Assembly (NCBI RefSeq): GCF_022848905.1
Contig: NZ_JAFIRA010000001.1
Location: forward strand, 1-64,000
Origin: Thermostichus vulcanus str. 'Rupite'
GTDB lineage: Bacteria > Cyanobacteriota > Cyanobacteriia > Thermostichales > Thermostichaceae
DNA: 64,000 nucleotides
Direction: 5' to 3'
Positions 28,487 through 51,917 of the stretch are shown in pieces. Under the pieces are notes generated by a model. The model did no database searches. It was not told the origin of the DNA and worked only from the letters and a program-made list of their open reading frames with translations. Position 1 is the stretch's first letter; each line of letters begins with the position of its first letter. The position numbers were made by a program, and so were the translations under genes.

Positions 28487-29506
28487 GTGGTCAGGGTAGC
28501 AATCAACGGATTTGGTCGCATCGGTCGCAACTTCTTGCGCTGTTGGTTAGGTCGCGCTCAGTCCAATCTGGACATCGTGGCCATCAATGACACTTCGGAT
28601 GCTCGCACTGCTGCCCACCTGCTCAAATACGATTCCATCCTGGGGCCGCTGCAAGGGGCGGAAGTTGAGCCCACTGAGCGGGGGTTGGTGGTGAATGGCA
28701 AACACATCAACACCGTTTCCGATCGCAACCCCAGTAACTTGCCCTGGAAAGATTGGAATGTAGATTTGGTGATCGAGGCTACGGGGGTCTTCGTCAACTA
28801 TGAGGGTGCCTCCAAGCATATCGAAGCCGGGGCCAAAAAGGTGATGATTACGGCTCCAGCCAAAGGCAGCGACATTCCTACTTTTGTGTACGGGGTAAAC
28901 CAAGCTACTTATGATCCCGTGCGGCACAACATCGTCAGCAATGCCAGCTGCACCACCAATTGCTTGACCCCGATCATCAAGGTCCTGCTGGAAAAATTTG
29001 GCATCGTCCGGGCCACCATGACCACCACCCACAGTTACACCGGCGATCAGCGCATTTTGGACGGTGGACACCGGGATCTGCGACGGGCACGGGCGGCTGC
29101 TTTAAGCATGGTGCCCACCACCACGGGGGCAGCTAAGGCCGTGGCGCTGGTGATTCCCGAACTGAAGGGCAAACTGAGCGGGGTTGCGGTACGAGTTCCC
29201 ACCCCCAATGTTTCTTTGGTGGATTTGGTCGTGCAAACCGAGAAGAGCGTCATTGCTGAAGAGGTGAATGATGCCCTTAAGGAAGCCTCTTTAACCACCA
29301 TGAAAGGGATCCTCGCCTATTCCGATATTCCGTTGGTGTCGATTGACTATCGCGGCCATGACTGCTCGGCCATTGTGGATGCGGAAATGACCAATGTGCT
29401 GGGTGGCGATTTGGTTAAGGTGATGGCCTGGTACGACAACGAGTGGGGCTACTCTCAGCGGGTGGTGGATCTGGCGGAATACATGGCGGCTCACTGGGTG
29501 GAATAG
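28487..29506 (+). CDS. gap2: Glyceraldehyde-3-phosphate dehydrogenase, Gap2 type
   Basis: A 339-residue Calvin-cycle enzyme using NADPH or NADH. The nucleotide fold opens [19 protein letters not shown]. The active-site cysteine is in [13 protein letters not shown] and the catalytic histidine in [33 protein letters not shown] and [16 protein letters not shown] are conserved. The [13 protein letters not shown] region with HRDLRRAR is typical of the photosynthetic Gap2 isoform. The start is GTG at 28487. Its 3' end overlaps the convergent galE by 16 bases. Confidence 0.96.
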
Positions 29507-30477
29507 GGCTGCTGCTGATGCCAACGCCAGGCGGTTTCAATGATCTGGGTTAAGTCGGCATAGGCGGGTTTCCAGCCTAGATCCTGCATGATGGCGCTGG
29601 CATCGCCTACTAAGCGCGGGGGATCCCCTGGACGACGTGCCCCAATTTGAACCGGGATCCTTTTTTGGGTGACGGCTTCGGCGGTGGCAATCACGTCTTT
29701 GACCGAAAAGCCTTGCCCATTCCCCAGGTTGTAGGCGGGTTGCACAGGCTGATGGGTGGTCAAGGCTTCTACAGCGAGGACATGGGCTTGGGCCAAGTCA
29801 CTGACGTGAATATAATCCCGAATACAAGTGCCGTCTGGGGTGTCGTAGTCATCCCCAAAAATGGTGATGTGGGGCCGCTGCCCACTGGCTGCATCCAATA
29901 CCAAGGGGATCAGATGGGTTTCCGGGTCGTGGGCCTCTCCAATTTCCCCATCGGGATCCGCCCCTGCTGCGTTGAAATAGCGTAGGCTAATCGATTGGAT
30001 CCCGTAAGCAAGGCGAAAATCCCGCAGCATTTGTTCCACCATCAGCTTGCTCTGGCCGTAGGGGTTGATGGGGCGTTGGGGATGGCTTTCTGGGATTGGG
30101 ATCTGTTCGGGTATACCGTAAGAGGCACAGGTGCTGGAGAAAACAATGTAAGGGATGCCGTGATCCCGCATCGCCTCTAGCAAACTGAGGGATCCCCCCA
30201 CATTATTGCGATAGTACTTGGCTGGATCTTTGACCGACTCTCCCACGTAGGCATAGGCGGCAAAGTGGATCACCCCTTCCGGTTGATACTGATTGATCAC
30301 CTGATCCAGTCGCTCCCGGTCAGCAATATCGCCCTTTTCCAAAGGCCCCCAGCGAACAGCCCAGGGGTGCCCATACACCAAATTGTCGAAGGTGATCGGG
30401 GTATGGCCGGAGGCAGCCAAGGCTTTGCAGGTGTGGCTACCGATATAGCCGGCACCGCCTGTAACCAAGAAACGCAT
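29491..30477 (-). CDS. galE: UDP-glucose 4-epimerase
   Basis: Interconverts UDP-glucose and UDP-galactose, supplying galactose units for the polysaccharide locus. The NAD fold is [20 protein letters not shown]; the catalytic motif is [10 protein letters not shown] with Tyr and Lys in [29 protein letters not shown] is typical. It has 328 residues from the ATG at 30477. It is the last gene of the leftward polysaccharide operon and overlaps the end of gap2. Confidence 0.95.
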
Positions 30478-30551
30478 AGACAGACCGTCAGTGGAGGATC
30501 CCACTTAGAATAAAGGAACAAAACACCTACTCTAAACTCACTAGCGACTCA

Positions 30552-31646
30552 CTAGCGCGTTAGCAAGTCGATCACCCGCCAAAGGTTACCAATACTGGTG
30601 AGTGGTCGCAAAAGAATATTGATCGGGTTGAGGGCAATGTCCAAGCTGTCGGACATCTGGGCGGCACCAGAGGGGCGAACCACGATCACATCCGAATTGC
30701 GTAGGGGAGGGTTGCTTTCCTCGCTAATGCCCTGAGCAAAATCGACCCCAATCTGCCGTGCTTCCACACTGCCATCTGGATTGAGCCGAATCAGTTCCAC
30801 GGTCTGTTGGGCTTTGGGGGTCAATCCTCCGGCAGCCAAAATGGCCACATTCAAGGAGGCATTCGGGCTGAGGCTGACTGCTCCAGGACGAGTGACTTCA
30901 CCGACGACATTGATGGTGATTGTGTCTGGGGCAAAATTGGCGGCACTGAGCTGGCTAATTTCAGCCGGGCTAACCTGGCTGGCGACCGGAACCCGAATCG
31001 TGTCGCCGTCGTAGATGATCGGATCTTCGCTGGCTGCTCCGTTCTGTAGCAGCTCCCAGAGGTTGACTTGCAACGTTTGCTCGCTGCCATTCCGGGTTTG
31101 TCGGCGGATCTCGATGTTGCGAATATCAGCTTTTTGAGTGATGCCGCCCGCCAGTTGGAGCAGTTGGGTCAAGCGAGGCACATCTTCCCTTAAGGTGGTT
31201 GCCCCCACCTCCAGCACCTCAGAGGCACCGGTCGTGCCCTGCTTGGGAGACACGGTGTAGCCCCCCGGTCGGTTTACTTCCCCCACCACATTGATCCGAA
31301 AACCGCGGGTATCGAGAAGGCTGACACTGACCGAAGGGTATTTCAAATAGAAGGCAAATTTTTGTTCCAAGTCTCCAGCCGCTTGTTGGAGCGTCAGCCC
31401 CTCCACCGGTACCGTGCCGACTAGAGGCAGAGCCAAGGTGCCATCCAATAACACCTGCTGATCCCCACTGAGGCTAGGCTCATTCAAAACCGTTACCCGT
31501 ACCCGATCTCCAGGCCCCAGAATATAGGCCCGCTCCTGCCAAGTGAGGCGACTATCCAGGCTGAGGGGAGGTTCAACCGCTAGGGCCACCCCAGGAAAAC
31601 AGCTTAAACCCAGAGCGCAGGCAAGAAGCCAACCATGCTGTTTCAT
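30552..31646 (-). CDS. Polysaccharide export protein (Wza-like)
   Basis: A 364-residue protein with a cleavable signal peptide (LLACALGLSCFPGVALA) and no lipobox. A poly-export domain follows (ILGPGDRVRVTVLNEPSLSG), then two SLBB-type repeats (INVVGEVNRPGGYTVSP and INVVGEVTRPGAVSLSP). It should form the outer-membrane exit pore for the exopolysaccharide, partnering with the Wzc-like protein at 37559. Lack of the Wza lipid anchor is common in cyanobacterial members. Confidence 0.92.
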   Translation of the reverse strand: MKQHGWLLACALGLSCFPGVALAVEPPLSLDSRLTWQERAYILGPGDRVRVTVLNEPSLSGDQQVLLDGTLALPLVGTVPVEGLTLQQAAGDLEQKFAFYLKYPSVSVSLLDTRGFRINVVGEVNRPGGYTVSPKQGTTGASEVLEVGATTLREDVPRLTQLLQLAGGITQKADIRNIEIRRQTRNGSEQTLQVNLWELLQNGAASEDPIIYDGDTIRVPVASQVSPAEISQLSAANFAPDTITINVVGEVTRPGAVSLSPNASLNVAILAAGGLTPKAQQTVELIRLNPDGSVEARQIGVDFAQGISEESNPPLRNSDVIVVRPSGAAQMSDSLDIALNPINILLRPLTSIGNLWRVIDLLTR

Positions 31647-31737
31647 GTCAGGGATCCTCTTCTCCACTTCAGACTGTTCAAGCTCATTGTTTGGGAATCC
31701 TTAGCTGTAACCTGTTGCAAGGTTCTTTCCCTTCACT

Positions 31738-33216
31738 TCAACGCCCCATGCCAAGGTAGGTAAACCCTGCCTGACGCATCTGCTGCGGCGAGAAAAAGTT
31801 ACGGCCATCCACGATCAAGGCTCGCCGCATCCCCGCCGCCAAACGGTCAAAGTCCACACTGGCAAACTCTGGCCATTCCGTTACCAAAACCAAAGCATCA
31901 CAGCCTTGGGCCAAACTCAGGGCATCGCTCTCCAATTGCACCCCCGCCAGGGATCCCTGATTGGATTGAATCATCGGGTCGTAGGCTTTGACCTTGGCGC
32001 CTAGTTTCAGCAGTTGCTCGATCACCGTCAGGGAAGGGGCATCCCGCATGTCGTCGGTATTGGGTTTGAAGGTGAGCCCCAACAGGCCAATGGTTTTTCC
32101 CTTCAAGACCTTCAATTCTTGCTGGAGCTTTTCCACTATCCGTAACCGCTGCTGACGATTCGTTTCGATCACCGCTTCCAAGATGGGAGTAGCACAGTGG
32201 TAATCTGCCCCCGTTCGCACCAAGGCCGATACGTCCTTGGGGAAACAGCTCCCCCCCCAGCCAATGCCGGCATTGAGAAACTTAGGGCCAATGCGAGAGT
32301 CAAGGCCAATTCCTCTGGCCACCTCTGTAACATCGGCCCCCACCCGTTCACAAATGGTGGCTACTTCGTTGATGAAGCTAATCTTGGTGGCCAAAAAGGC
32401 GTTGGCGGCATATTTCACCATTTCTGCAGAGGCCAAATCCGTCACCAAAAAGGGTACCGGCGGTTGTGCCTCGGGGGTTGCCTCGGGATCCCAGCTGTGG
32501 TTGATGATCGGTTCATAAAGTTGCCGCATGATCGCTATGGCAGTGGGGCTATCCGAGCCGATGACAATGCGGTCGGGATGGAAGGTATCCCAAATGGCGC
32601 TGCCTTCTCTTAAAAATTCCGGATTGCTGACCACATCAAAGTGGGGCAACACAGACTGCAAATCGAAGCGCCGTGGATTGCTATGGGATCCCGCCAACAC
32701 TGAACTGCCCACCCATAGTTCCTCTTTGGCTGCCTGGGCGGCTCCATCCAGAATCATCATGCGCACCCAATCCCCAGAGCCAATTGGCACCGTGGACTTA
32801 TTGACAATCACTCGGTAACGAGAGCGCGTTTGGGTACGGATTAAGCCCTGCCCAATGCCACGGGCCACGGCTTCCACGTACTGCAAATTCGGATCCCCGG
32901 AGGGCAAAGCCGGAGTGCCAACCGTAATGAAGATAATGTCCCCGAATTCAATGCCACGGTTGAGGTCAGTGGTGAATTGAATGAACCCCGGAGGAGTGGA
33001 GGCAGCTTCATGATCTGCTTTAGGGTCTATGGGTCTGTAAGAGTGACGGAAGACAATCGACTCCAACCCTGGTTCGTAAATTGGAATTTTTCCAGCTTGT
33101 AGAGCCGCAACTTTGTCACGGTTATTGTCCACACAGATCACCTGATGGCCAATTTGAGCCAAACAGGCGCCTGTTACCAAACCTACATAACCCGTGCCAA
33201 TTACGGTTACATTCAT
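31738..33216 (-). CDS. ugd: UDP-glucose 6-dehydrogenase
   Basis: Oxidises UDP-glucose to UDP-glucuronate for the acidic polysaccharide. The NAD motif is MNVTVIGTGYVGLVTGACLAQ (about residues 1-21) and the catalytic cysteine is in GWGGSCFPKDVSAL. GLLGLTFKPNTDDMRDAPS and a C-terminal UDP-binding domain complete it. With 492 residues it is longer than the roughly 440-460 usual; the extra residues lie around YRPIDPKADHEAASTPP and the central domain. A GGTGAG ribosome site precedes the ATG at 33216. Confidence 0.94.
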   Translation of the reverse strand: MNVTVIGTGYVGLVTGACLAQIGHQVICVDNNRDKVAALQAGKIPIYEPGLESIVFRHSYRPIDPKADHEAASTPPGFIQFTTDLNRGIEFGDIIFITVGTPALPSGDPNLQYVEAVARGIGQGLIRTQTRSRYRVIVNKSTVPIGSGDWVRMMILDGAAQAAKEELWVGSSVLAGSHSNPRRFDLQSVLPHFDVVSNPEFLREGSAIWDTFHPDRIVIGSDSPTAIAIMRQLYEPIINHSWDPEATPEAQPPVPFLVTDLASAEMVKYAANAFLATKISFINEVATICERVGADVTEVARGIGLDSRIGPKFLNAGIGWGGSCFPKDVSALVRTGADYHCATPILEAVIETNRQQRLRIVEKLQQELKVLKGKTIGLLGLTFKPNTDDMRDAPSLTVIEQLLKLGAKVKAYDPMIQSNQGSLAGVQLESDALSLAQGCDALVLVTEWPEFASVDFDRLAAGMRRALIVDGRNFFSPQQMRQAGFTYLGMGR

Positions 33217-33321
33217 GGTTGGGCTCACCTTTTTAACATGCATCGAACAAACTACGGATTTTCCTGCTCTATACCTGTAAGAGCTGAAACTAAGCAGGAG
33301 CTTTGTCGGGTCATGGATTTA

Positions 33322-33608: not shown

Positions 33609-34550
33609 TCAAAACGCGCCGAAACCAGTTGCAACCTTGGGCAATGTTTGTAGAAGAATGGACAGATCTTTGAGCAAAGACCAGTGGCCTAAGTACTGCA
33701 AATCCATGCGGTTGACGACCTCCAAATCCAGTTGGGTTGAACGTGCCGAAACCTGCCATGCGCCAGTGATCCCTGGCAAGGCGAGCATCCGATGTCGGCA
33801 GGAGGCGGGGATCCGAATTGCGTCGTAAATAGCCCAGGGACGGGGCCCCACCAGACTCATCTGCCCTAGCACTACATTGAACAGTTGGGGTAACTCATCG
33901 ATGCTGTACTTGCGCATCCAGCGCCCGATTGGGGTAATACGAGGGTCATCCTGGCGCTTGTGCAAACCATTTTGGTTCCCCATGACCTGATGGTGGAATT
34001 TGTCTGCATTCGGCACCATGGTGCGGAACTTGATGATGCGAAATAATCTGCCCCCATGCCCAACCCGCCATTGCTTGAAGAAGAAAGGGCCAGGAGAAGA
34101 GATGAGCATCAGCGCCATCACTCCGAGAAAAACTGGGATCAAGCACAACAAACCGAAAGCCGCCGCCAGACGATCCGACCAACGCTTCACTTGCCAGGGC
34201 AGTGGATGACGGTGCTCCGGCAGCCAAAACAGGGACGGGGTGCTTAACTGCATGGCTGCTGGCCGACCGGTCTGGGCTGCCAAATCGGCCCAAAGATTGA
34301 TATCCTGCTGGGGCAGAGACGGATCCAGAAAAAGTTGTCGGGCAGAACTGTACTGTAGCCAACTGAGAACGGCTGGGCGGGGATCCCAATCCGTCATGGA
34401 ATCCCGTTGCCACTGGGGCGCAGGCTGAACAAATAGGGATCCCTTGAACTGCTTCAGGATCCAGCAGTGAAAATGGAAGCTGAGCAACATCTCCTCTGGT
34501 AAAAGCGCTGGAGAGGGCCTTGCTGCCTGTAGAACCAACTCTGAAACCAT
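33609..34550 (-). CDS. Initiating sugar transferase, HepC-like
   Basis: A polyprenyl-phosphate sugar-phosphate transferase of the bacterial sugar transferase (WcaJ/RfbP core) type, starting polysaccharide assembly on the lipid carrier. One membrane helix (about 145-165), then KQWRVGHGGRLFRIIKFRTM, DDPRITPIGRWMRKYSIDEL and GQMSLVGPRPWAIYDA. The N-terminal 130 residues replace the multi-helix region of WcaJ and resemble the cyanobacterial HepC group. It has 313 residues from the ATG at 34550. It is the second gene of the leftward operon after the PqqD-like gene. Confidence 0.9.
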   Translation of the reverse strand: MVSELVLQAARPSPALLPEEMLLSFHFHCWILKQFKGSLFVQPAPQWQRDSMTDWDPRPAVLSWLQYSSARQLFLDPSLPQQDINLWADLAAQTGRPAAMQLSTPSLFWLPEHRHPLPWQVKRWSDRLAAAFGLLCLIPVFLGVMALMLISSPGPFFFKQWRVGHGGRLFRIIKFRTMVPNADKFHHQVMGNQNGLHKRQDDPRITPIGRWMRKYSIDELPQLFNVVLGQMSLVGPRPWAIYDAIRIPASCRHRMLALPGITGAWQVSARSTQLDLEVVNRMDLQYLGHWSLLKDLSILLQTLPKVATGFGAF

Positions 34551-34601
34551 AATCAAGCCGATGAGAGGATGTGAAGGAAAGATGGACGGTTGGGATCCCA
34601 A

Positions 34602-34916
34602 TCAAGGACAGGCTGCGGTTACAACCTGAATTAACCCTTCCGAAGCAAGCGATCGGGCTAGATCCAGCACCTCCTGTTCGCACACCTGCGGATCCACCTC
34701 GTAGTCCTCTAGCAAGCAGTTGAGAAGATGACCGATTCGAATTGGGCTCTTCATGAGAGTCCAAATATGAAAGCCAATAGGGTTGAAGCCGTAGTAAACC
34801 CCAGAATCCAAATCCAGTAAGACAGCTCCATCTTCCAGAGAGGAGGAAACCTGATTGCCGGCACACACAACAGTGCTGTCAACCGTGATAGCAGGTGCAG
34901 TTTTCAACACGCTCAT
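34602..34916 (-). CDS. PqqD-family (RRE-type) protein
   Basis: A 104-residue protein with the PqqD winged-helix pattern: SSSLEDGAVLLDLDSGVYYGF, then NPIGFHIWTLMKSP and CEQEVLDLARSLASEGLI. PqqD-like domains bind leader peptides of ribosomally made peptides, or act as the B1 protein of lasso peptide systems. No radical SAM enzyme, B2 protease, cyclase or kinase partner is seen in the window; neighbours are polysaccharide genes. A GGAG ribosome site precedes the ATG at 34916. It is the first gene of the leftward operon. Confidence 0.85.
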   Translation of the reverse strand: MSVLKTAPAITVDSTVVCAGNQVSSSLEDGAVLLDLDSGVYYGFNPIGFHIWTLMKSPIRIGHLLNCLLEDYEVDPQVCEQEVLDLARSLASEGLIQVVTAACP

Positions 34917-35332
34917 GGTTAAACTCCACAGTGTCAAATCCGCTCAGATCACCGCAAGGGACGATGGCAACTCAAGCAACAGAGCCACTGCACGCCAGCA
35001 AAAGACCTCGGAGGCAGAGCGGAATACTCTCTGAGTTTGCCCAGTCCTGAAGAAAAGAGCATCTTTCTTTATATTTTCTTTAGGTTTACTCGCGATCTGC
35101 TCACAGGAAGCATTTTCTCAGTGTCTATCTACTCTTTTCGGGGGGTGGCCCCTTTGCGGTTCGGCCAAATATAAATAAATTCTTAAGAAAGATAGGTCTC
35201 GATGATGGCTCATGTCTTACTTGCAATGTCTGCCTCCACAGGCTCTGTTGCCGAACGGTGGGTAGTGCTTAGGAGTTCAGGTTGGGTTAAAGGCTTTGGC
35301 CTTGGTAGGTTCTGGTCGAGCTGGTTTTCCGG
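34917..35332. promoter_or_regulatory. Divergent promoter region of the polysaccharide locus
   Basis: About 415 bases between the leftward (PqqD-like first) and rightward (WecB-like first) operons. No gene is seen. It is AT-rich around 35060-35100 and 35165-35195, includes a 10-base palindrome ttcttaagaa at 35180-35189 and a GGGG/CCCC hairpin near 35140-35153. Promoters for both operons and any regulator sites must lie here; exact boxes are not assignable by eye. Confidence 0.55.
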
Positions 35333-36421
35333 ATGATGTCCACTCATTTGCAAATTCTGCCGCCCTCTGTTCCGACGAAAGTGTTGGGGCAGGTGTTTGC
35401 TGTGGACTTGCTGGGGCGTCAACTGCACTGCATGACGGCTCCCGCTTTGGTGGAAGAAATCTGGCAAGCCTGTCGCTACAACCAGCGGCGGGTGATTGCC
35501 CACTGCAATGTGCATGGGTTCAATCTTTCAATGATCTGCCCCCGGTTCTATCGCTTCTTGCAATCAGCGGATATTGTCCATTGCGACGGTATTGGCATTC
35601 TCAAGGCGATTGGCTACTTGGGCAAGCTGAAGCTGCCTGTAGAGTATCGAGTCTCTTACACCATCCTCATGCCACTCCTGCTGGAGCGTTGCCAACGGGA
35701 AGGATTGTCTCTGTACTTGCTGGGGGGGAGCCCAACTCATTTGGAGAAGGCTCTGAGCCATTTGCGGCTGCTTTATCCTCGTCTGCAGGTAACAGGGCAC
35801 CATGGTTACTTTGCTGCAGAGGATCCCGAAGAGAATGCAGCCATTGTGGAATCGATTCGCGCCAGCGGCTGCCAGATCTTGATCGTCGGCATGGGTATGC
35901 CCAGACAAGAGTACTGGATTGAACACCATCGGGATCACCTGGCTGTGAATGCAATTCTTTCCGGTGGGGCAGTGATTGACCGCTTGGCGGGAGTCGTACC
36001 CGATTGTCCGAAGTGGCTATCCGATGTGGGCTTGGAGTGGTTGTATCGGCTGTCTCGTGAGCCACGGCGATTATCCGTCCGCTATCTGCTGGGAAACCCT
36101 ACGTTTGTCTTGACGTTGGCTTTGGCTCGCTTACAAGGGTTTCGGGTGTCTTGGGTTGAGCAAACTGATCCCGCAGAACGGACTCTTCCGGTCTCCTCCT
36201 CTTGGCGAGTGCAGTCTCCTGAAGAAGCCAAGATTCGCCTTTTGGGTCAAATGCTGACTGAGTCAGGGATCCTCAAACCCACCCAAGTGGAGCAAGCCCT
36301 GGTGGAGCACCAGTTGACAGGCAGGCCGTTTCGAGAGGTTGTCTTACACCACGGTTGGGCACTGGAAGCAGCCTTGGAAGTAGTGACCGAGAAGTTGCTG
36401 CGGACGGAGATACCCAGGTGA
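35333..36421 (+). CDS. WecB/TagA/CpsF transferase with C-terminal extension
   Basis: A 362-residue protein. Residues about 1-260 are a GT26-family N-acetylmannosamine or glucuronic-acid type transferase (IVHCDGIGILKAIGYLG, QILIVGMGMPRQEYWIEHH, AILSGGAVIDRLAGVVPDCP). Residues about 300-360 (IRLLGQMLTESGILKPTQVE, then HQLTGRPFREVVLHHGWALE) look like the N-terminal domain of type II/IV secretion ATPases (T2SSE_N/MshEN). That domain binds partners or c-di-GMP in some proteins. The fusion is unusual. It is the first gene of the rightward operon. Confidence 0.87.
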   Translation: MMSTHLQILPPSVPTKVLGQVFAVDLLGRQLHCMTAPALVEEIWQACRYNQRRVIAHCNVHGFNLSMICPRFYRFLQSADIVHCDGIGILKAIGYLGKLKLPVEYRVSYTILMPLLLERCQREGLSLYLLGGSPTHLEKALSHLRLLYPRLQVTGHHGYFAAEDPEENAAIVESIRASGCQILIVGMGMPRQEYWIEHHRDHLAVNAILSGGAVIDRLAGVVPDCPKWLSDVGLEWLYRLSREPRRLSVRYLLGNPTFVLTLALARLQGFRVSWVEQTDPAERTLPVSSSWRVQSPEEAKIRLLGQMLTESGILKPTQVEQALVEHQLTGRPFREVVLHHGWALEAALEVVTEKLLRTEIPR

Positions 36422-36467: not shown

Positions 36468-37562
36468 ATGAAGATCTGGCATGCTCTTTACCAATCGAAA
36501 ACCGGCACAGGCACCCTTCAAGTGGTGCTGGACTTACAGGCATCGGCACAGGCAGCAGGCCACACGGTATCCATCCTCGCTAGAGATGCACAGGTGTTTG
36601 CAGAAGCCGGGGCAGAACGGTTTTTCACGGGCAACAAGCTTTGGGATTGGCTGCGGTTTGGGCAGCGAATCGCCCAAGATTCTCCTGATCTGGTGCATGT
36701 GCATGATCGCTATTGCTCCCTGCTGTTGCGAGGGATCCCGAATCGCCCCCCCAGTGTGCAAACCAACCACATTGCCTATACCACCCGTCGCCGCTTCACG
36801 CTTTTGGCAGATGTTGTGGTTGGGTGCTCTGAGGCGATGGATCGTCACCATGCTGAGTTTTTTAACCTGCCATCTCACCGTCGAGCCGTTATTCAAAATG
36901 GCATCACAGCCCGTTTGCCCGATCCAGAGCAGGTGGCCCAGTTGCGGCAATCTTTGCCAGGACAGGGAAAAAAGCTTTGCCTGACGGTTGCCCGACTGGA
37001 ACCGGAAAAAGGACACCGCTATTTGCTAGAGGCTATTGCTGGACTGGATCCCGCTCTGCGCAAAGAATGGCGGTTTGTAATGGCGGGTTCTGGCTCTCTG
37101 GAAAATGCTCTCCAGAAGCAAGCGCAGCAGTTGGGCTTGGACGCCGACGTGTTTTGGGTCGGCCACACGTCTCAGGTGCCGGAGTGGCTGGCTTTGGCTG
37201 AGGTGTTCGTCTTGCCTTCTCTCCTAGAAGGGTTGCCTCTTTCTCTTCTGGAAGCGATGGCGGCTGGGCTGGCTTGTTTGGCAACAGATGTGGGTGGTAC
37301 TGCTGAGGCCTTGCATCCGCAGCGAAATGGGTTGTTGATCCCGCCAGAAGATGTGCCTGCCCTACGGGAAGGGTTGACCCAACTGTTGGGAAATGCCCAA
37401 CTGCGCAGACAGCTTGGGCAAGCTGCTCATGCCGATTACCAGCGCCATTGGCGGTTTGAGCGCACTTGGCAACAGTACGAAGCTCTCTATCAGCGCTTGC
37501 ACTGCGCCGCCTTGCATTCCCCTACTCTCTCACCTGATTCTCTTACCCCGCGACTGCCATGA
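36468..37562 (+). CDS. Glycosyltransferase family 4
   Basis: A 364-residue GT-B-fold transferase beginning MKIWHALYQSKTGTGTLQVV. The donor-site half has LTVARLEPEKGHRYLLEAI, followed by FVLPSLLEGLPLSLLEAMAA with the E-x7-E motif. It adds a sugar to the growing repeat unit; donor and linkage are unknown. Its stop overlaps the start of the Wzc-like gene by 4 bases. Confidence 0.92.
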   Translation: MKIWHALYQSKTGTGTLQVVLDLQASAQAAGHTVSILARDAQVFAEAGAERFFTGNKLWDWLRFGQRIAQDSPDLVHVHDRYCSLLLRGIPNRPPSVQTNHIAYTTRRRFTLLADVVVGCSEAMDRHHAEFFNLPSHRRAVIQNGITARLPDPEQVAQLRQSLPGQGKKLCLTVARLEPEKGHRYLLEAIAGLDPALRKEWRFVMAGSGSLENALQKQAQQLGLDADVFWVGHTSQVPEWLALAEVFVLPSLLEGLPLSLLEAMAAGLACLATDVGGTAEALHPQRNGLLIPPEDVPALREGLTQLLGNAQLRRQLGQAAHADYQRHWRFERTWQQYEALYQRLHCAALHSPTLSPDSLTPRLP

Positions 37563-39715
37563 CTTTTGATTCCGCCTACGCTATGCCTGTGCGTCGTCCC
37601 CTGCCGGAACGGGTAATCCGTGCTTTCTTACCAGAATCTTGGTTGTTTCTGCTGGTTCTGATCGCCGTGTTGGGGCCGGCGGTGTACTGGATTCGGCGCA
37701 TCCCTCCCATTTACCAGGCCCATTCGGAATTGTTGATTGAGTCCCCGCGCAGTGTGGAGCGCTTGGTTTCAGGGGCGAATAACTCGGGGGTGAGTAACCT
37801 CGATACAGTTGGGGATCGGGTTAACCCGATCAACAACCAAATCGCCCTGATCCGTTCCACTCCCATTTTTGAAAAGGCTCTTGAGCAGGCAGGGCTGGAG
37901 CGGCAAGAGGTTCCCCAAGGGGCGCTCGGAGTGAAGCTGCTAGGGGGGACTGACCTAGTGGAAATCAGCTATTCCTCCACAGATCCAGAATTGCCACCGA
38001 AGGTTGTCGCTGCCATCACTGAGGTTTACATACAAGAAAACCTACGACTGAACCGAGAGAGAGCATCTCAGGCGCGGCGAGCCCTGGAACGCCAATTACC
38101 AGAGCTACAGGAGGATCTGCGCAAAGCCCAAGATGCGCTAGAAGCCTTCCAACAGGAAAATCGTTTTTTGGGCGGTGGTAATGAAACAGCGGATGTGGCT
38201 CGTACCCTGAATGACATGCGCCAGCGGGTGCAAGCGGCTCAGGTGGAGCTTTCTTCAACCGTACAGCGGATGGAAAGCCTGCAAAGTCAGCTTCCAGAGG
38301 ATCCCGATGCTGCATTACGGATTGTCGGTCTGAGTCGGGATCCCAACTTTCAAGCGTTGCGAGCAGATCTGGTCAAAGCAGAGACGGAATTGGCTCAGTT
38401 GCAATCCCGGTACACTGATCAAAATCCCCAGGTGCTCAGTGCTTTGGAAAAAAGAGAGCGCTTAGCCAATCTGCTTCGAGACTATTCCATACGGGCTTTG
38501 GGGGAGCAAGCCGGATCCGATCTGGCCATTCCGGATCCCGTTCAGCAGGGTTTGGTTGAGAAATGGTTTGAGCTTGGGGTAGAACGTGCGGCTCAAAATG
38601 CCCGCCTAGGTCAACTAAACAGCCAGTTTGCGGAGATTCAGAGCCGTTATGATGCGTTGCCTCAGTTGGTGAAAGAGCATACCCAGCTGCAACTGGCTTT
38701 GGATCGAGCCCGCCAGACCTACTTGATCTTCAGCGAAAACCTTGCCTCTAGCCGTATTCTCGAGCAACAAAGCTTGGGTAATGTGCGGGTGATTGAGCCC
38801 CCCAGTCAGCGAAGCGTTCCGATTGGCCCCAATCGCAAACCTCTTTATGCTGTGGCACTGGTTTTAGGCACTCTCACAGGACTGGGGGCAGTATGGGCTA
38901 AGGTCGCCACCAACAACAGGCTGTGTACTCTACCGGAGTTGCGAGATATTCTGCCGTTGCCTGTCCTCAGTGCGGTGCCCTGGGGGGGAGTTGAGAAGCT
39001 GGCGGCTAGTGCCGGAAGGGACAACCCTCTGCTGGATGGCTATCAAACTTTGCAAGCCCACATGCGTATGCTGCCTCGAGAAGTGCATACCATTGCCATT
39101 GCCAGTTGGTCTCGCCCCGAAGGGAGTGGGCTGGTGGCTGAAAACCTAGCCCTGCTGGAAGCGCAAATTCGTCGCCGAGTTTTGCTGGTACGGGCCAATA
39201 CCCATGAGATGGGATCCCCTCATTTGAGCCGTTTTGATGCCACTACTCTGGAGGAGCGAGATTTAAAAGATCCGGCAGAAGAGGAACGGCAATGGCGGGA
39301 GTGGCTACAAACTCAAACCGCAGAGAACCCCAATGGTTCTAAGACCGGTGCCGAATTACGCGGATTCGATGTGTTGACTTATCAAGTGGGGCTTTCCGTT
39401 TCTGCCTACAAAAAATGGTCAATGCTTTTGGATCGGTTGCGCAAGCGGTATGACTTGGTGATTTTGGATTGTCCACCCGTTTCCCAAGGCTCAGCCGCGA
39501 CGTTACTGGCTTCTTTGTGTGATGGAGTACTCTGGGTCGCAGCTCCGCGGCAATTGGGGCGAAGGGGAGCAGCAGCAGCAGCGGAAACCTTACGGACTTG
39601 GGATACCCGCCTACTGGGTCAAGTTGTGGTGGGAACAGGTGCTCATGCTGTTGTCAATGGACATCCTCGATTGGGCAAACCCAAAGCCCAAAGCCTATTG
39701 ACTGAGGGAGTTTAG
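37559..39715 (+). CDS. Wzc-like chain-length protein with degenerate kinase
   Basis: A 718-residue inner-membrane protein. First helix at about 27-44, Wzz-type domain with long coiled coils (about 160-270 and 340-400), second helix at about 430-447, then a cytoplasmic BY-kinase-like domain. In that domain the P-loop expected as PGEGKST reads RPEGSGL, lacking the lysine (39097-39150). The expected LLIDAD reads LLVRAN, and there is no C-terminal tyrosine cluster. Only the Walker-B-like VILDCPP remains. It should act in chain length and export scaffolding but not as a kinase. Confidence 0.9.
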   Translation: MTFDSAYAMPVRRPLPERVIRAFLPESWLFLLVLIAVLGPAVYWIRRIPPIYQAHSELLIESPRSVERLVSGANNSGVSNLDTVGDRVNPINNQIALIRSTPIFEKALEQAGLERQEVPQGALGVKLLGGTDLVEISYSSTDPELPPKVVAAITEVYIQENLRLNRERASQARRALERQLPELQEDLRKAQDALEAFQQENRFLGGGNETADVARTLNDMRQRVQAAQVELSSTVQRMESLQSQLPEDPDAALRIVGLSRDPNFQALRADLVKAETELAQLQSRYTDQNPQVLSALEKRERLANLLRDYSIRALGEQAGSDLAIPDPVQQGLVEKWFELGVERAAQNARLGQLNSQFAEIQSRYDALPQLVKEHTQLQLALDRARQTYLIFSENLASSRILEQQSLGNVRVIEPPSQRSVPIGPNRKPLYAVALVLGTLTGLGAVWAKVATNNRLCTLPELRDILPLPVLSAVPWGGVEKLAASAGRDNPLLDGYQTLQAHMRMLPREVHTIAIASWSRPEGSGLVAENLALLEAQIRRRVLLVRANTHEMGSPHLSRFDATTLEERDLKDPAEEERQWREWLQTQTAENPNGSKTGAELRGFDVLTYQVGLSVSAYKKWSMLLDRLRKRYDLVILDCPPVSQGSAATLLASLCDGVLWVAAPRQLGRRGAAAAAETLRTWDTRLLGQVVVGTGAHAVVNGHPRLGKPKAQSLLTEGV

Positions 39716-39720
39716 TAGCC

Positions 39721-41073
39721 ATGTTAAAGGCTCCCCTTCCCCAGTCTTTGAAGGCTGAGGCCGAGTGGCTTCCTGAGTTGTTCAGCCAGGGAATGCCTGA
39801 TCAACACGCCGAAAGCGTGATCTTTTGGACGATTGCTTTGGTGCCGCTTTGGTGGATTCTGGGCATTCAAATTATGGTTTACCCACTGGTGGGGGGATAT
39901 TTGCTGTTGCGCAGTTGGTATCGCCCACAGCCAGTTCCATTGTTGGTGGGATGGCACCTCTGGTGTGGTTACATCGTCGCCTGGCTGGTTTCGCTGCTGA
40001 TTAATTTGGCTTTAGGGGTAGCAGAGGTAGGTCGTAGCCTCACGGCTTTGGGAGCGATCTTGGGCGTTTGGGTGCTGACGGTGGCGGTTTGGTACGCTGT
40101 GCGTCGGTTGCGGGTTCGTTTTCAAGTGGTGGTCAGAGCGGCCTGCATTGTCGGTCTATGCCAGCTGATCGCGGTTGTGATCGGGGAAGGGTACTTACGC
40201 CTGACGGGATCCCTTTTGGAAACCCGCAGCCTTGTGACTATAGTGTGGCCTTCGATACCGGCTCGGGTTTTCTTTGAGGCACAGCTTTATGGCCTGGATC
40301 GAATCGCCTGGGAGGTGGATCCCGTTTTGGTGCCACGTCTGAAGTCATTTTACTATTGGTCTCCCCTAGCTGGGACGATGAGTTTGATTCTCAGTCAGAT
40401 TGCATTAACGGAGGAGAGTCGATTTTGGCGGTGGGTTGGACTCATCGGTGCAGTGCTAACGCTTCGGTTCTCAGCAGCTCGTATGGCTCAACTGGCTTTT
40501 GGGGCAGCAACTCTGATCAGTCTCTGGTTTGGCAGTCGCTGGGGACGTCGAATCATGAACTGGTTGGCGATTCCCCTGGCAGCAACTTCTCCATTTTTAA
40601 TTGGCGGCTTTACCTGGTATCTCTTCAATTATCGACGGGACTCCTTCACGCTACGTCAGGAGATGTATCGGGAGGCTTTTGAAGCCTTTCTGGATTCTCC
40701 TTTTTTTGGCTATGGGGCTCAAGGGCATTCCAGGATTACCCACCACCCGCTGGGATCCCACTCCCAGGTTCTTTCTTCTCTTTATCAAACTGGGGCGATT
40801 GGCTCCACTTTGCTTATTTTGGCTTGGCTGGCTATAGCTGTAGCGTTGGTGAATTGGGTATTAAAACATCCTCATTTATCACCCTGTTTGGGAGCTTGGG
40901 TTGGGCTTACGTTTGTCATGCTCACCGAGGAGTATCACGCTGCAAGTGTTACTGCTTTTACTCTATCGGCTTGGTTGGGTTGTGCCTGGAATTGGGGGGA
41001 GCAGGCTATTCGTCGTCAGTGGTTACCGCCATGGTGGCAAGAACCTCCTTTCCCATGGCAACAGCGCGTTTAA
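39721..41073 (+). CDS. O-antigen ligase/polymerase-like membrane protein (Wzy)
   Basis: A 450-residue protein with about 11 hydrophobic segments. A large loop carries the O-antigen ligase pattern FFGYGAQGHSRITHHPLGSH followed by SQVLSSLYQTGAIGSTLLIL. In this locus it is the natural candidate for the Wzy polymerase that joins repeat units in the periplasm. It starts 5 bases after the Wzc-like stop and is surely in the same operon. Confidence 0.88.
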   Translation: MLKAPLPQSLKAEAEWLPELFSQGMPDQHAESVIFWTIALVPLWWILGIQIMVYPLVGGYLLLRSWYRPQPVPLLVGWHLWCGYIVAWLVSLLINLALGVAEVGRSLTALGAILGVWVLTVAVWYAVRRLRVRFQVVVRAACIVGLCQLIAVVIGEGYLRLTGSLLETRSLVTIVWPSIPARVFFEAQLYGLDRIAWEVDPVLVPRLKSFYYWSPLAGTMSLILSQIALTEESRFWRWVGLIGAVLTLRFSAARMAQLAFGAATLISLWFGSRWGRRIMNWLAIPLAATSPFLIGGFTWYLFNYRRDSFTLRQEMYREAFEAFLDSPFFGYGAQGHSRITHHPLGSHSQVLSSLYQTGAIGSTLLILAWLAIAVALVNWVLKHPHLSPCLGAWVGLTFVMLTEEYHAASVTAFTLSAWLGCAWNWGEQAIRRQWLPPWWQEPPFPWQQRV

Positions 41074-41117
41074 AAGATACTCTTTTGGGCTTAATCTAAA
41101 ACTCAACGGGTGCTGTC

Positions 41118-42086
41118 ATGCTGAACCGTTTTCTTCGTAAATCTAGTTTCCTGAGTATTAAAGGGATGAGCATTGCAGTTGCCCTGATGACTGCGTCCAT
41201 TGTTTTTGCTTGCTCTGGTTCAATTACAGGAATATCAAGCAAGTTGTTTGTAAGAGTTGATCCATTTTATGGAGTAGAAGTGGGAAATGATGCCAACGTG
41301 TCTAGAATTATTTCTGTCTTACAGGATTTGAAGATCAGTACAGTTCGTCTCTGGGCTAATGTAAATTGGAATGAGCGCCGTGAACCTACTAGTGGTGTTT
41401 TTGATCGAGCCCGACAGTTAAAGCAAGCTGGATTCAGGGTCATTGTTCTATTCCAAAACCGTGAAGTTCCTTCCTCTACAACTGCGGTCAAATCTTATTT
41501 TGATTGGGTACAAACTCTGCCAGGCATTAGAGAGTCTATCGATATCTGGGAGATTCTCAATGAGTTGGAGGGTAGCAAGTATTGGTTAGGAACGGGTAGT
41601 CAGTATGTGCAGTTGGTGCTCAAGCCAGCCTGGGAATCATTACATGCTCATAGGGAGAAGGTTCTTGGAGGATCTTTCTCCGCTTGGCAGGAAACAGGTT
41701 GGAATACCAGTGTTACACAAGAGTACTTAGCAGCAGGGTATCTGAACTACGTAGACTATGCTGGCAGTCATCCTTATACCTTTACAGTTGAGCAGATGAA
41801 GCGGCACTTAAATGAAGTGAAGCAATTATACGGATCCAAGCCAATCATCATCACTGAATGGAACTTTTTGCCACAGGCTCGAGCTGATCACCGTAGGGAT
41901 TATCAGAAGTGGCGGCAGATGCTAGACGAGGTGCTGCCTTACGTAAAGGGGCAGGTCTTGACCGTTTGCTATTTCCGTCTACATCAGTTGCGTAGTGAGG
42001 GTGGCTGGCCTGGTTTGATCGATTACGAAAATCGTCCAGTTAATCCCTTCTATGAAATGTATCGTTCTTGGACTCGATCAGTTTAG
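41118..42086 (+). CDS. Lipoprotein glycoside hydrolase (TIM barrel)
   Basis: A 322-residue protein with a lipoprotein signal (GMSIAVALMTASIVFAC, lipobox VFAC). The mature part fits a clan-A glycosidase barrel: the acid/base is the Glu of WEILNELEG and the nucleophile the Glu of IIITEWNFLPQ, with GSHPYTF between. It probably trims or cuts the polysaccharide made here, as seen with hydrolases in other export loci. The exact GH family is not assigned. AT content rises sharply from this gene onward. Confidence 0.85.
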   Translation: MLNRFLRKSSFLSIKGMSIAVALMTASIVFACSGSITGISSKLFVRVDPFYGVEVGNDANVSRIISVLQDLKISTVRLWANVNWNERREPTSGVFDRARQLKQAGFRVIVLFQNREVPSSTTAVKSYFDWVQTLPGIRESIDIWEILNELEGSKYWLGTGSQYVQLVLKPAWESLHAHREKVLGGSFSAWQETGWNTSVTQEYLAAGYLNYVDYAGSHPYTFTVEQMKRHLNEVKQLYGSKPIIITEWNFLPQARADHRRDYQKWRQMLDEVLPYVKGQVLTVCYFRLHQLRSEGGWPGLIDYENRPVNPFYEMYRSWTRSV

Positions 42087-42127
42087 CTGCTTGACTTGTT
42101 CAACCTTTGCTTTCTCCCCTCAACCTT

Positions 42128-43078
42128 ATGAATCCCACTCCAACAGTAAGTGTCATTGTTCCTGCCTACAATGTGCAGCAGTATATCACTGAGGCTCTTC
42201 AGTCTCTTATTTGTCAGACCTGGCAGGACTTTGAAGTGTTGATTGTTAATGACGGTTCCACAGATAGCACTGCAGAGGTTGTAGAAACTTGGTGTCAAAG
42301 GGATCCCCGCTTCCATCTTCTATCAAAACCAAATGGGGGACTAGCTTCTGCTCGCAATTGGGGAATTCGTCACGCTCATGGTGAGTTAATTGCTCTACTG
42401 GATGCTGATGATCGCTATCTTCCCCAAAAGATAGCTAGCCATGTTGAGATATTGCAACGACATTTAGATGTTGGTGTTGTTTACAGCGCCTCGAAGGTGA
42501 TTCGGGACGATGGGCGTCCAACTTGGCTAACTCTAAGTGGTCGCCCAGTACATTCAGATCCTCTACTGGCCATGCTTTGTAAGAATTTTATCGGTCACGG
42601 CTCAAATGCAATATTTCGAAGAGAACTGTTTGATCAAATTGGAGGGTTTGATGAAAGCTTACGAAGCTGTGAAGATCTTGACTTTTGGATTAAAGTAGCA
42701 GAACAGGGATCCCATCGTTTTTACAGACATCCACAAGCTTTATGTGAATACCGAGTTCGACCCAGTGGATTATCATTCAATGTCAAAAAAATGCAGGAAT
42801 GTGGTGAACAAGTCTTACAAGCTGCTTTTAACCGTTCTAAAGAGAAGGTGGAGCCAATGATGCCTACAGCTTACGCTTTTTTCTATCGTCTCCTAGCTCG
42901 CTTGGCTTTGACAGCTCAAGAACCTGGGTTAGCCAAAGAGTATATTGCTAAGGCTATTGCTAGTGACAGATCCATTTTCTGGCGGGATCCCCGCTCATTG
43001 CTAACGTTAATTGCTGTTCGTTTGCAGTCTGTTTCACGCCCCTTGATTCAGTTTTCTTTGGATCCTCGTTCTTCCTAA
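42128..43078 (+). CDS. Glycosyltransferase family 2 (first)
   Basis: A 316-residue GT-A enzyme starting MNPTPTVSVIVPAYNVQQYI, with the nucleotide motif EVLIVNDGSTDSTAEV and the DxD-type motif IALLDADDRYLP. The acceptor region reads GGFDESLRSCEDLDFW. The C-terminal part has a positively charged helix pair. The ATG at 42128 is preferred over the upstream TTG at 42107. It adds one sugar of the repeat unit. Confidence 0.92.
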   Translation: MNPTPTVSVIVPAYNVQQYITEALQSLICQTWQDFEVLIVNDGSTDSTAEVVETWCQRDPRFHLLSKPNGGLASARNWGIRHAHGELIALLDADDRYLPQKIASHVEILQRHLDVGVVYSASKVIRDDGRPTWLTLSGRPVHSDPLLAMLCKNFIGHGSNAIFRRELFDQIGGFDESLRSCEDLDFWIKVAEQGSHRFYRHPQALCEYRVRPSGLSFNVKKMQECGEQVLQAAFNRSKEKVEPMMPTAYAFFYRLLARLALTAQEPGLAKEYIAKAIASDRSIFWRDPRSLLTLIAVRLQSVSRPLIQFSLDPRSS

Positions 43079-43128
43079 GTTTTCCAGCTTTGCCTGAAAA
43101 TAGTCATTATCTAAAAAAAAAAGCCTCT

Positions 43129-44637
43129 ATGACGACCCTTGAAGCATCACCTCCAGACAACTTGCGTTCTCGCCTTTTCAGTGGACTACGTTGGAAGGTG
43201 GGATCCCAAGTAATGCAGCAGTTATTAAATTTGGGTAGCGCAGTGGTGATGGCCCGTTTGCTTTCACCTGAGGATTTCGGTTTGCTGTCCATGGCAAGTG
43301 TATTCACAGGGATTGTTTATGTAGTATTAGATCTAGGACTGGGAGCAGCACTAGTTCAACGTAAAAACATAGAGCCACAGCATGTTTCTAGTATTTTTTG
43401 GATGAATGTAAGTGTAGGGCTTTGCCTTTCTCTCATGGGGATTGCCCTCTCCTGGCCAATTGCTATCTTCTACAAAACTCCAGCAGTGCAATGGGTTATT
43501 GCAGCCCTAGCTTGTTGCTTCTCAATTGCTGCATTGGGTAGTACTCAGGAAGCTCTGCTCACCAGAAAAATGCACTTTCGAGCACTAGAATTTCGTCGGA
43601 TGTTAAGCCATCTTGTGGGTATAATTACGGGCTTAATAATGGCATATTTAGGTTGGGGAGTCTGGAGCTTGGTGGGCCGTATTGTCATAACCAGTTTGTT
43701 AGGAACAGCGTTGCTTTGGTATATCTCAAGTTGGCGACCCACTTGGAAATTTCGTTGGGTAGATGTACGGGAGATGAGTGGCTTTAGCAACGATGTCTTA
43801 GGAGGAAACCTATTGGGATATGTGGGGCGGAATGCCGACAACCTCTTGATTGGAAGATTCCTGGGTGCTATTGAGCTAGGCTTCTATAGTATGGCTTACA
43901 ATTTGATGACAGCTCCGTTGGATCGGATTGCTCAGGTGTTAGCAGGAGTCCTGTTCCCGGCTCTATCTCGACAACAGGAGAATCTGAGTAAAGTCAAGCA
44001 GAGTTGGTTTAGAGCCAGCCAGTTGGTTGTAGCAGTGGTTATCCCCCTTGTTGTCGGACTCATCCTTTTGGCACCTGAATTGGTACAGGTATTCTATGGC
44101 GAAAAATGGCTGCCGGCAGTACCTATTTTGCAGATCTTAGCAGTACGAGCTTTGGTAGTCAGCTTGAAGGCCCTTGATGGAACGGTTTTAATGGCGATTG
44201 GTCAAACTCGCTTGCGACTCAACATGATTGCTCTGTCGGTAGGAGTAGCTGTTTTATCCTTCTTGATTGGGATCCCATTTGGTATTCGGGGTGTGGCTTT
44301 GAGTTTCACCAGCTTCACTTCTCTCATATCGATGATCGGCTTGTATCTGACTCTAAAGTGCGTCAATTCTAGCTTCGTTGCCTACTTCGGCAACTTAAGT
44401 GGAATCCTGTTTGCTACAGCTGGAATGACGGTTGGTGTCTTTACAATGAAGCTGATTTGGCTAGATTCTGCGGTCAATCTACTGATGACAGCTATTTTGC
44501 TGGGAGGAATTCTTTACTTGAGATTGTTGCAGCTGATGGCTCCAGACGTAATTCAGCAAGGGATTGGCATTTTGCCCAACCACTGGGCGAATAAGTTTTT
44601 GCGTTTTAGCACTCGTTCTAATTCACAGGTTCCTTAA
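43129..44637 (+). CDS. Polysaccharide flippase (Wzx-like)
   Basis: A 502-residue membrane protein with about 12-14 helices of the MOP/PST family. Typical pieces are GLRWKVGSQVMQQLLNLGSA at the start, VVMARLLSPEDFGLLSMASV and FLGAIELGFYSMAYNLMTAP. It should flip the lipid-linked repeat unit to the periplasm for the Wzy-like polymerase. The ATG at 43129 fits the family start; the open frame begins at 43090. Confidence 0.93.
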   Translation: MTTLEASPPDNLRSRLFSGLRWKVGSQVMQQLLNLGSAVVMARLLSPEDFGLLSMASVFTGIVYVVLDLGLGAALVQRKNIEPQHVSSIFWMNVSVGLCLSLMGIALSWPIAIFYKTPAVQWVIAALACCFSIAALGSTQEALLTRKMHFRALEFRRMLSHLVGIITGLIMAYLGWGVWSLVGRIVITSLLGTALLWYISSWRPTWKFRWVDVREMSGFSNDVLGGNLLGYVGRNADNLLIGRFLGAIELGFYSMAYNLMTAPLDRIAQVLAGVLFPALSRQQENLSKVKQSWFRASQLVVAVVIPLVVGLILLAPELVQVFYGEKWLPAVPILQILAVRALVVSLKALDGTVLMAIGQTRLRLNMIALSVGVAVLSFLIGIPFGIRGVALSFTSFTSLISMIGLYLTLKCVNSSFVAYFGNLSGILFATAGMTVGVFTMKLIWLDSAVNLLMTAILLGGILYLRLLQLMAPDVIQQGIGILPNHWANKFLRFSTRSNSQVP

Positions 44638-44680
44638 TCATTCTCTAATCACCCCCCTTTTTCTTAAGAGGAGACTCTAG

Positions 44681-45610
44681 ATGCAAGTGCAGAAAAGAAT
44701 ACCTTGGCCCTTAGTATCAGTGGTCATTCCCGTTTTTAATGGAGAGAAGATGTTACCAAGTCTGCTAGACTCTCTTAAAACATTAGAGTACCCAAGCGAC
44801 AGGCTTGAGATTCTTTTGATCGACAACAATTCGAAAGATGGAACAGCAAAATTGCTCCAAGAAAGTGGCCATCGGATTTTATTTGAGGCTGTACCAGGGT
44901 GTGGTACTGCTCGCAATCGAGGCATTCAAGAAGCACGAGGAGAATACATTGCTTGTACGGATGTAGATTGTGTGTTAGATCCACGGTGGATTCAAGATTT
45001 ACTGGAAGGTTTTACAAATCAGCAAATAGGTGCTGTTGCTGGCACAATAAAGCCTTATAGAATAGACCATCCAGTCATTCGATATGAAGCTTTGACCCTA
45101 CGTAGTCCCAGTCACTGTCCAGAACATCATCTGTTTCTGCCTACAGCCTGTACGGCGAACGTCATGTATAGGGCCGAAGTCTTTCAGCAAGTTGGTTTGT
45201 TACTGAATCAATCTGGCGGAGAGGAGGTGGATCTAAATTGGAGGATGCAAAGTCAAACGCCTTATCGAATTAATTTCTTGCAACAGGGTGGGATTGTCTA
45301 TCATCGCTACCGTGAAGATATAAGATCACTTTGCCGATCACAAAAATACAAAGCCCGTACATTGGTCGAATTACATCACCGATGGAATCTTAAAGTTCCA
45401 ACTGGAAGAAAGGAGTTATCAAGGTCAATTTTATCTTTGCTAGCTTTTTTACCACGTTGTTTCAGTCGTGTTTTTGAGTTGATCAAGTATAAGCCTATTA
45501 CTGTGGCATTTAGAGATAGTTTTCTGGAAGCTTGGCTAGATGTTTGTGTTCCTTGGACTCGCTATCTAGGAATTCGAGAGGGTTGGGCAAAATTACTGGA
45601 TTCATTATAG
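44681..45610 (+). CDS. Glycosyltransferase family 2 (second)
   Basis: A 309-residue GT-A enzyme, beginning around LVSVVIPVFNGEKMLPSLLD, with ILLIDNNSKDGTAKLL and the metal motif ACTDVDCVLDPRW. HRNRG-type motif GTARNRGIQEARGEY is present. The basic C-terminus may contact the membrane. AT-rich. Confidence 0.92.
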   Translation: MQVQKRIPWPLVSVVIPVFNGEKMLPSLLDSLKTLEYPSDRLEILLIDNNSKDGTAKLLQESGHRILFEAVPGCGTARNRGIQEARGEYIACTDVDCVLDPRWIQDLLEGFTNQQIGAVAGTIKPYRIDHPVIRYEALTLRSPSHCPEHHLFLPTACTANVMYRAEVFQQVGLLLNQSGGEEVDLNWRMQSQTPYRINFLQQGGIVYHRYREDIRSLCRSQKYKARTLVELHHRWNLKVPTGRKELSRSILSLLAFLPRCFSRVFELIKYKPITVAFRDSFLEAWLDVCVPWTRYLGIREGWAKLLDSL

Positions 45611-45661
45611 GCAAGTTCCCTAAATGGCAATCGCAATATCAAGGCTCCTAAGGTTTATTCC

Positions 45662-48204: not shown

Positions 48205-48259
48205 GTGGATCGTGTTCGACTGTAGATGCTAAATAGAGTCATGGATAGGAGGGGTGGTT

Positions 48260-49483: not shown

Positions 49484-49514
49484 CTATTTGCATAGGGTTT
49501 TTAGGAGAACAGTA

Positions 49515-50486: not shown

Positions 50487-50540
50487 TTTTGATTTTTGTT
50501 GGTAAATCTACTTGCGTGTCTAAAGGAGGAAATGTATCTC

Positions 50541-51818: not shown

Positions 51819-51917
51819 GACTATAAATTTCTCTCTTGGTTATTACAGACTGTATTTAACTTAAACAAGTAAAAAACTGGAATAGTCTTGTTTTGTGGCA
51901 TCAACAAGGAAGCTGAA

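Follow-up and report, generated by a model that had tools for sequence, protein, structure and literature searches.

The glycosyltransferase gene and its surroundings

The window, i.e. the whole 64,000-nucleotide stretch of DNA that was analysed, contains a cluster of polysaccharide genes on both strands, and the gene studied here is the first of the plus-strand row. The following features were located.

29491..33243, minus strand: GalE-like epimerase, SLBB polysaccharide export protein and UDP-glucose dehydrogenase
33609..34937, minus strand: initiating sugar transferase (Bac_transf, PF02397) and PqqD-like protein, divergent partners of the gene
35333..36421, plus strand: ORF of 362 aa with an ATG start, predicted WecG/TagA/CpsF (GT26) glycosyltransferase with a C-terminal MshEN_N-like domain
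35402..36133, plus strand: residues 24-267, GT-E catalytic core and C-terminal appendage (PF03808, TagA match, invariant columns)
36134..36217, plus strand: residues 268-295, linker (low model confidence, faster evolving with a dN/dS of 0.19)
36218..36406, plus strand: residues 296-358, MshEN_N-like four-helix domain (NF053729, structure matches, dN/dS 0.04 against the same-genus ortholog)
36468..52811, plus strand: downstream polysaccharide genes (GT4, Wzc-like, Wzy-like, glycosidase-like, GT2, Wzx-like, further GTs, MBOAT acyltransferase, FkbM methyltransferase)
60159..62174, minus strand: PAS-GAF-GGDEF diguanylate cyclase (the genome holds eight GGDEF loci in all)

This arrangement agrees with the preliminary description of the stretch, which had placed a glycan-assembly enzyme at the head of the operon. 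Gene order is collinear over the compared part of the cluster in a genome of the same genus (G003), and in relatives the member of this transferase clade usually lies next to the same GT2. The cluster would correspond to an exopolysaccharide pathway of the Wzx/Wzy type. Neither a c-di-GMP riboswitch nor any other known RNA was found by Rfam over 28-53 kb. The diguanylate cyclase, to which the preliminary description had also pointed, is present but carries almost no weight, being one of eight and about 24 kb from the gene. Eight GGDEF loci in 3.7 Mb give by our estimate a chance of ~13% per 64 kb, and co-occurrence was rejected as evidence. Two other features of the cluster were recorded. An ORF of 409 aa (48254-49483) has no Pfam match, and the PqqD-like protein (34602-34937), directly before the initiating sugar transferase, is an unusual partner for a polysaccharide cluster.

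PF03808 (WecG/TagA/CpsF) matched residues 79-251 with an E value of 1.2e-51 (175.3 bits, cut-off 27.4) and was the sole Pfam match in the ORF, the C-terminal part giving none. TIGR00696 was also above its threshold (115.2 bits, cut-off 69). TagA was matched by sequence (7MPK, E 5.7e-28), and the GT core was superposed on the same structure with an rmsd of 1.9 Å and a TM score of 0.92 on the target. The GT-E fold was found in this way against 14 TagA/TarA chains (E < 1e-11, TM ~0.92 on the target, rmsd 1.5-1.9 Å), and TagA with UDP-sugar (7MPK, 5WFG) was among the matches in this rmsd range. Asp65 of TagA, the general base, corresponds to D85, and Arg214, Arg221 and Arg224 of the TagA appendage correspond to R239, R246 and R250; all four residues were invariant in an alignment of 22 relatives. 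Thr37 of TagA is replaced by His57 at the equivalent position. In the full-length model (pLDDT 90.2, pTM 0.77) a flexible linker connects the GT core to the four-helix tail. Judged by family cut-offs, modelled GT-E fold, catalytic Asp and appendage Arg together, the protein is a member of GT26.

The active site of TagA is completed by a C-terminal appendage, in which the active-site arginines sit. The appendage also serves as membrane anchor, is folded in the active monomer only and governs the dimer-to-monomer activation (PMC6493773). In the window protein the MshEN_N-like tail is attached directly after this TagA-type appendage. Such a position plausibly suits a regulatory module, which might act on the enzyme from there.

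Fold of the tail and its c-di-GMP signature

The C-terminal 68 residues were matched by the NCBIfam model NF053729 ('c-di-GMP_motif, MshE-related') with an E value of 5.9e-8 at 32.4 bits. The scores (28-32 bits) fell below the curated cut-off of 38 bits, which related GT26-MshEN fusions exceeded. A phmmer search of the tail against the PDB gave Thermus PilF (3e-6) and Vibrio cholerae MshE (0.007); with a profile of fused domains the values were 3.6e-24 for PilF and 6e-10 for MshE (5HTL). Modelled alone with AlphaFold (pLDDT 87.1), the tail formed helices at positions 5-19, 25-38, 42-49 and 54-67. Its top Foldseek match was 5HTL, MshE with c-di-GMP (rmsd 0.9 Å over 54 columns, probability 1.00). 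The same chain headed the VIA-align list with a Z score of 9.5, followed by fumarase-type helix bundles (Z <= 7.5). Because such bundles reach 7.5, the Z score was considered insufficient alone, and sequence and structure were used jointly to decide. The PilB-PilZ complex 7LKO was also among the structural matches. On sequence and model together, the T2SSE_N/MshEN-like extension is genuine and beyond chance. The fusion of a WecB/CpsF transferase to a secretion-ATPase-N-like domain, as first described, was thus borne out by PF03808, NF053729, the PDB matches and the model, and the predicted structure did match MshEN.

The MshEN motif is defined as two half-motifs of 24 residues separated by a five-residue spacer, and MshEN domains were gathered by Wang et al. 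with a relaxed pattern (PMC5013675). The tail was compared with the strict tandem half-motif RLGxx(LVI)(LVI)xxG(LVI)(LVI)xxxxLxxxLxxQ and with the relaxed form from Wang et al. 2016. Binding by MshE depends above all on hydrophobic and Gly positions, and a change of Arg9 or Gln32 costs at most fivefold in affinity (PMC5013675). For this reason no residues other than the hydrophobic ones and the Gly were treated as strongly diagnostic. The G40I and G11L proteins were not stabilized by c-di-GMP, G40I showing little or no binding, and XpsE has lost c-di-GMP binding with changes including R38G, G40L, L58C and Q61V (PMC5013675). In the tail the half-motifs were located as follows, with changes given in MshE numbering.

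36239..36310, plus strand: half-motif I, residues 303-326 (LLGQMLTESGILKPTQVEQALVEH), 8 of 12 strict positions; signature Arg to Leu (R9L) and Gln to His (Q32H)
36326..36397, plus strand: half-motif II, residues 332-355 (PFREVVLHHGWALEAALEVVTEKL), 5 of 12 strict positions; R38P, L39F, G40R (R334), L58T and Q61L

In the window protein and its same-genus ortholog, both half-motifs have lost their c-di-GMP contacts. Tested with the relaxed consensus, each half showed three violations and neither passed. What is retained is part of motif I, together with the two glycines that initiate helices. Among 40 modules picked for comparison, which are not a random sample, the Gly of the second motif (with a shift of one residue allowed) was absent only from one degenerate repeat and from the window protein and its ortholog. 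The C-terminal pattern noted earlier therefore stands for one half-motif; the second half is poorly kept, and there the binding signature fails.

The tail of the window protein could still bind c-di-GMP, perhaps in an altered mode, and switch the glycosyltransferase allosterically as in NfrB, a precedent for a glycosyltransferase with a C-terminal MshEN module (PMC8669469). Its fold matches c-di-GMP-bound MshE and PilF, the remnants of motif I and the two glycines are in place, and the genome encodes eight GGDEF proteins as well as other MshEN proteins. However, both half-motifs fail the relaxed consensus, the five changes of half-motif II hit the second guanine site and the two of half-motif I hit the first, and G40I alone abolished detectable stabilization of MshE (PMC5013675). 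We regard binding of c-di-GMP by the window protein as most improbable. Because the contacts are lost in both half-motifs, the direct second-messenger control proposed in the preliminary description is unlikely, and a binding assay is predicted to be negative. The protein would act in the manner of a regulated glycosyltransferase with two domains, and it belongs to GT26. Since the motif test failed, it should not be filed as an MshEN c-di-GMP receptor.

Selection on the tail and occurrence of the fusion in cyanobacteria

Compared with the G003 ortholog, the dN/dS of the tail was 0.042 (bootstrap 5-95% 0.01-0.10), against 0.068 for the GT core and 0.19 for the linker; the values come from this one pair, with four nonsynonymous differences. 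They speak for strong purifying selection on the tail, on a basis that is thin, and the extension is conserved in this relative. The branch of the window tail in the domain tree is very long, at 2.1 changes per column, which leaves the exact ancestry of the tail uncertain. Such a branch is as expected from fast change followed by renewed constraint. Because the domain appears to be under strong purifying selection, it probably does another job, e.g. docking. The altered pocket might hold some other ligand, such as a different nucleotide: many pocket positions have changed jointly in a domain that is still constrained, but no known MshEN domain with a different main ligand was found, and we consider this very unlikely.

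Relatives were retrieved by an alignment query of genome contigs; a single-sequence query gave no match. The GT clade of the window protein contained 45 rows (support 100/99). Fused forms in this clade were the window pair, L041, L051/L107, L054 and Iningainema tapete (L087). In Calothrix rhizosoleniae (L088) and Alkalinema RU_4_3 (L111) a frame change or an insert separates GT and module, and bare GT forms lay between the fused and split ones. One or two modules were present in each case, in scattered cyanobacterial lineages, and several were near-canonical. L041 has two of these (11/12 and 8/12 positions) and L054 has one. The Iningainema module carries G11A and has lost RLG, and from these residues it is read as a second independent decay. 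In the domain tree seven modules of the clade grouped together (91/82), the window pair and L041 being unplaced. For the window's own clade, one gain followed by losses and several gains are both compatible with the tree. The Myxacorys protein stops inside an apparent half-motif I, and possible remnants of the tail in L096, L042 and L049, each too short to score, are suggestive only. Split or disrupted GT26-MshEN genes were recorded at L068:2893-4356, L111:4185-4655 and L088:5817-6170, by decay or sequencing error. The frame-disrupted GT with modules in L068, which is of the same genus as L041, may be an assembly error.

The scatter of fused, split and bare forms in the clade, the out-of-frame or displaced modules of Alkalinema and Calothrix, the truncated Myxacorys protein and the long branch of the window tail would all suit a functionless remnant that is decaying and heading for loss. 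Against this, the dN/dS of the domain in the window/G003 pair is as low as that of the GT core and below that of the linker, and the four-helix model is confident. A decaying remnant is therefore thought unlikely, and retention of the tail under selection is preferred.

Further fusions were also found.

L067:4257-5618, L168 and L169 (genomes G099, G090 and G197): second GT26-MshEN clade; L067 adjoins an initiating sugar transferase
L031:2773-4131 (genome G008): further GT26-MshEN fusion with two modules; overlaps the gene of an initiating sugar transferase

The second GT26 clade is distant from the first, and its three members carry two C-terminal MshEN modules each, some near-canonical. Their domains cluster in the tree with those of larger multi-module ORFs. 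One origin for all fusions was considered and rejected, since the domains of L067, L168 and L169 are nearer to these larger ORFs and their GTs are distant. As read from the trees, the GT26-MshEN fusion is recurrent in cyanobacteria and the second clade acquired its modules independently. The survey of other genomes suggested in the preliminary description thus gave further fusions, in two separate cyanobacterial GT26 clades. Control by c-di-GMP may hold in relatives of the window's clade and in the second clade, their motifs being near-canonical, and the L067/L168/L169 clade is a better test case for it than the window gene. Other MshEN proteins are encoded in the window's own genome. A 789-aa open frame (G000:C6:44420-46621) has MshEN modules at both ends, an arrangement of which L037 holds relatives, and MshEN modules were also seen in two short open frames, G000:C21:13271-13606 (182 aa) and G000:C37:34377-34526 (252 aa).

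Proposed role and comparison with known systems

The reading that we favour, and consider fairly probable, is that of a GT26 transferase with a tail of MshEN_N fold, in which the c-di-GMP contacts have been lost and the tail is kept by selection as a ligand-independent docking or oligomerization part. The enzyme would probably add the second sugar to the primer that the adjacent Bac_transf protein makes on polyprenyl diphosphate; this role as second transferase is what we presume from knowledge of the family. Several relatives probably have a tail that still senses c-di-GMP and that would adjust the enzyme by way of the appendage. In the window genome and its same-genus relative, where the contacts are gone, selection would retain the tail, most likely for docking or oligomerization, as in XpsE or in the N-domain of PilB with PilZ. 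We infer from the relatives that the ancestral module bound c-di-GMP. A wider scenario is possible, although we hold it with some doubt: early-acting cyanobacterial GT26 enzymes would have captured MshEN repeatedly, which would place a committed step of the Wzx/Wzy route under direct c-di-GMP control, and in the lineage of the window protein the module would later have been freed from c-di-GMP and taken up for a different regulatory task.

The best-known cases of direct c-di-GMP control of polysaccharide enzymes are synthase-type systems (cellulose, PGA, NfrB). With an MshEN module on a GT26 enzyme, the signal would act early in the Wzx/Wzy route. Because TagA-type enzymes are already controlled by the appendage that bears the module, this mechanism can be tested directly, and near-canonical and signature-less modules on orthologous enzymes offer a natural contrast of module function with and without ligand. 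Wang et al. already noted that glycosyltransferase domains can be fusion partners of MshEN (PMC5013675). No report of the GT26 fusion was found in the literature searched on WecG together with MshEN and on c-di-GMP with CpsF or TagA in cyanobacteria, although the fusion may be among the MshEN architectures of Supplementary Table 4 in PMC5013675.

TagA/TarA of Thermoanaerobacter italicus (GT26; 5WB4, 7MPK; PMC6493773) has the fold, the catalytic Asp and the appendage with conserved Arg in common with the window protein, but TagA ends at the appendage whereas the window protein continues into the MshEN_N-like domain. The N-terminal domain of V. cholerae MshE (5HTL; PMC5013675) shares the four-helix MshEN_N fold and the 24-5-24 layout. 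MshE is a secretion ATPase, however, and the window protein lacks the signature residues and the MshEN_C part. The N-domain of XpsE/GspE from Xanthomonas campestris has an MshEN-like fold and has lost its c-di-GMP contacts by comparable changes, and the MshEN-like N-domain of X. citri PilB was solved with its partner PilZ (7LKO); both proteins are secretion or pilus ATPases, whereas the window protein is a glycosyltransferase. The nearest functional precedent is NfrB of E. coli, which likewise serves exopolysaccharide synthesis and combines a glycosyltransferase with MshEN at the C terminus (PMC8669469, PMC8669472). The NfrB family model NF012033 did not match over the full length, only the MshEN part being aligned (11.8-16.5 bits against 537). 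The glycosyltransferase-dependent function of NfrB requires its C-terminal c-di-GMP-binding MshEN (PMC8669469). NfrB belongs to another family (GT2), works as an exopolysaccharide synthase in the inner membrane and has an MshEN that binds c-di-GMP with a Kd of 1.0 µM, whereas the window protein belongs to GT26, lies in a Wzx/Wzy-type cluster and has lost the contacts.
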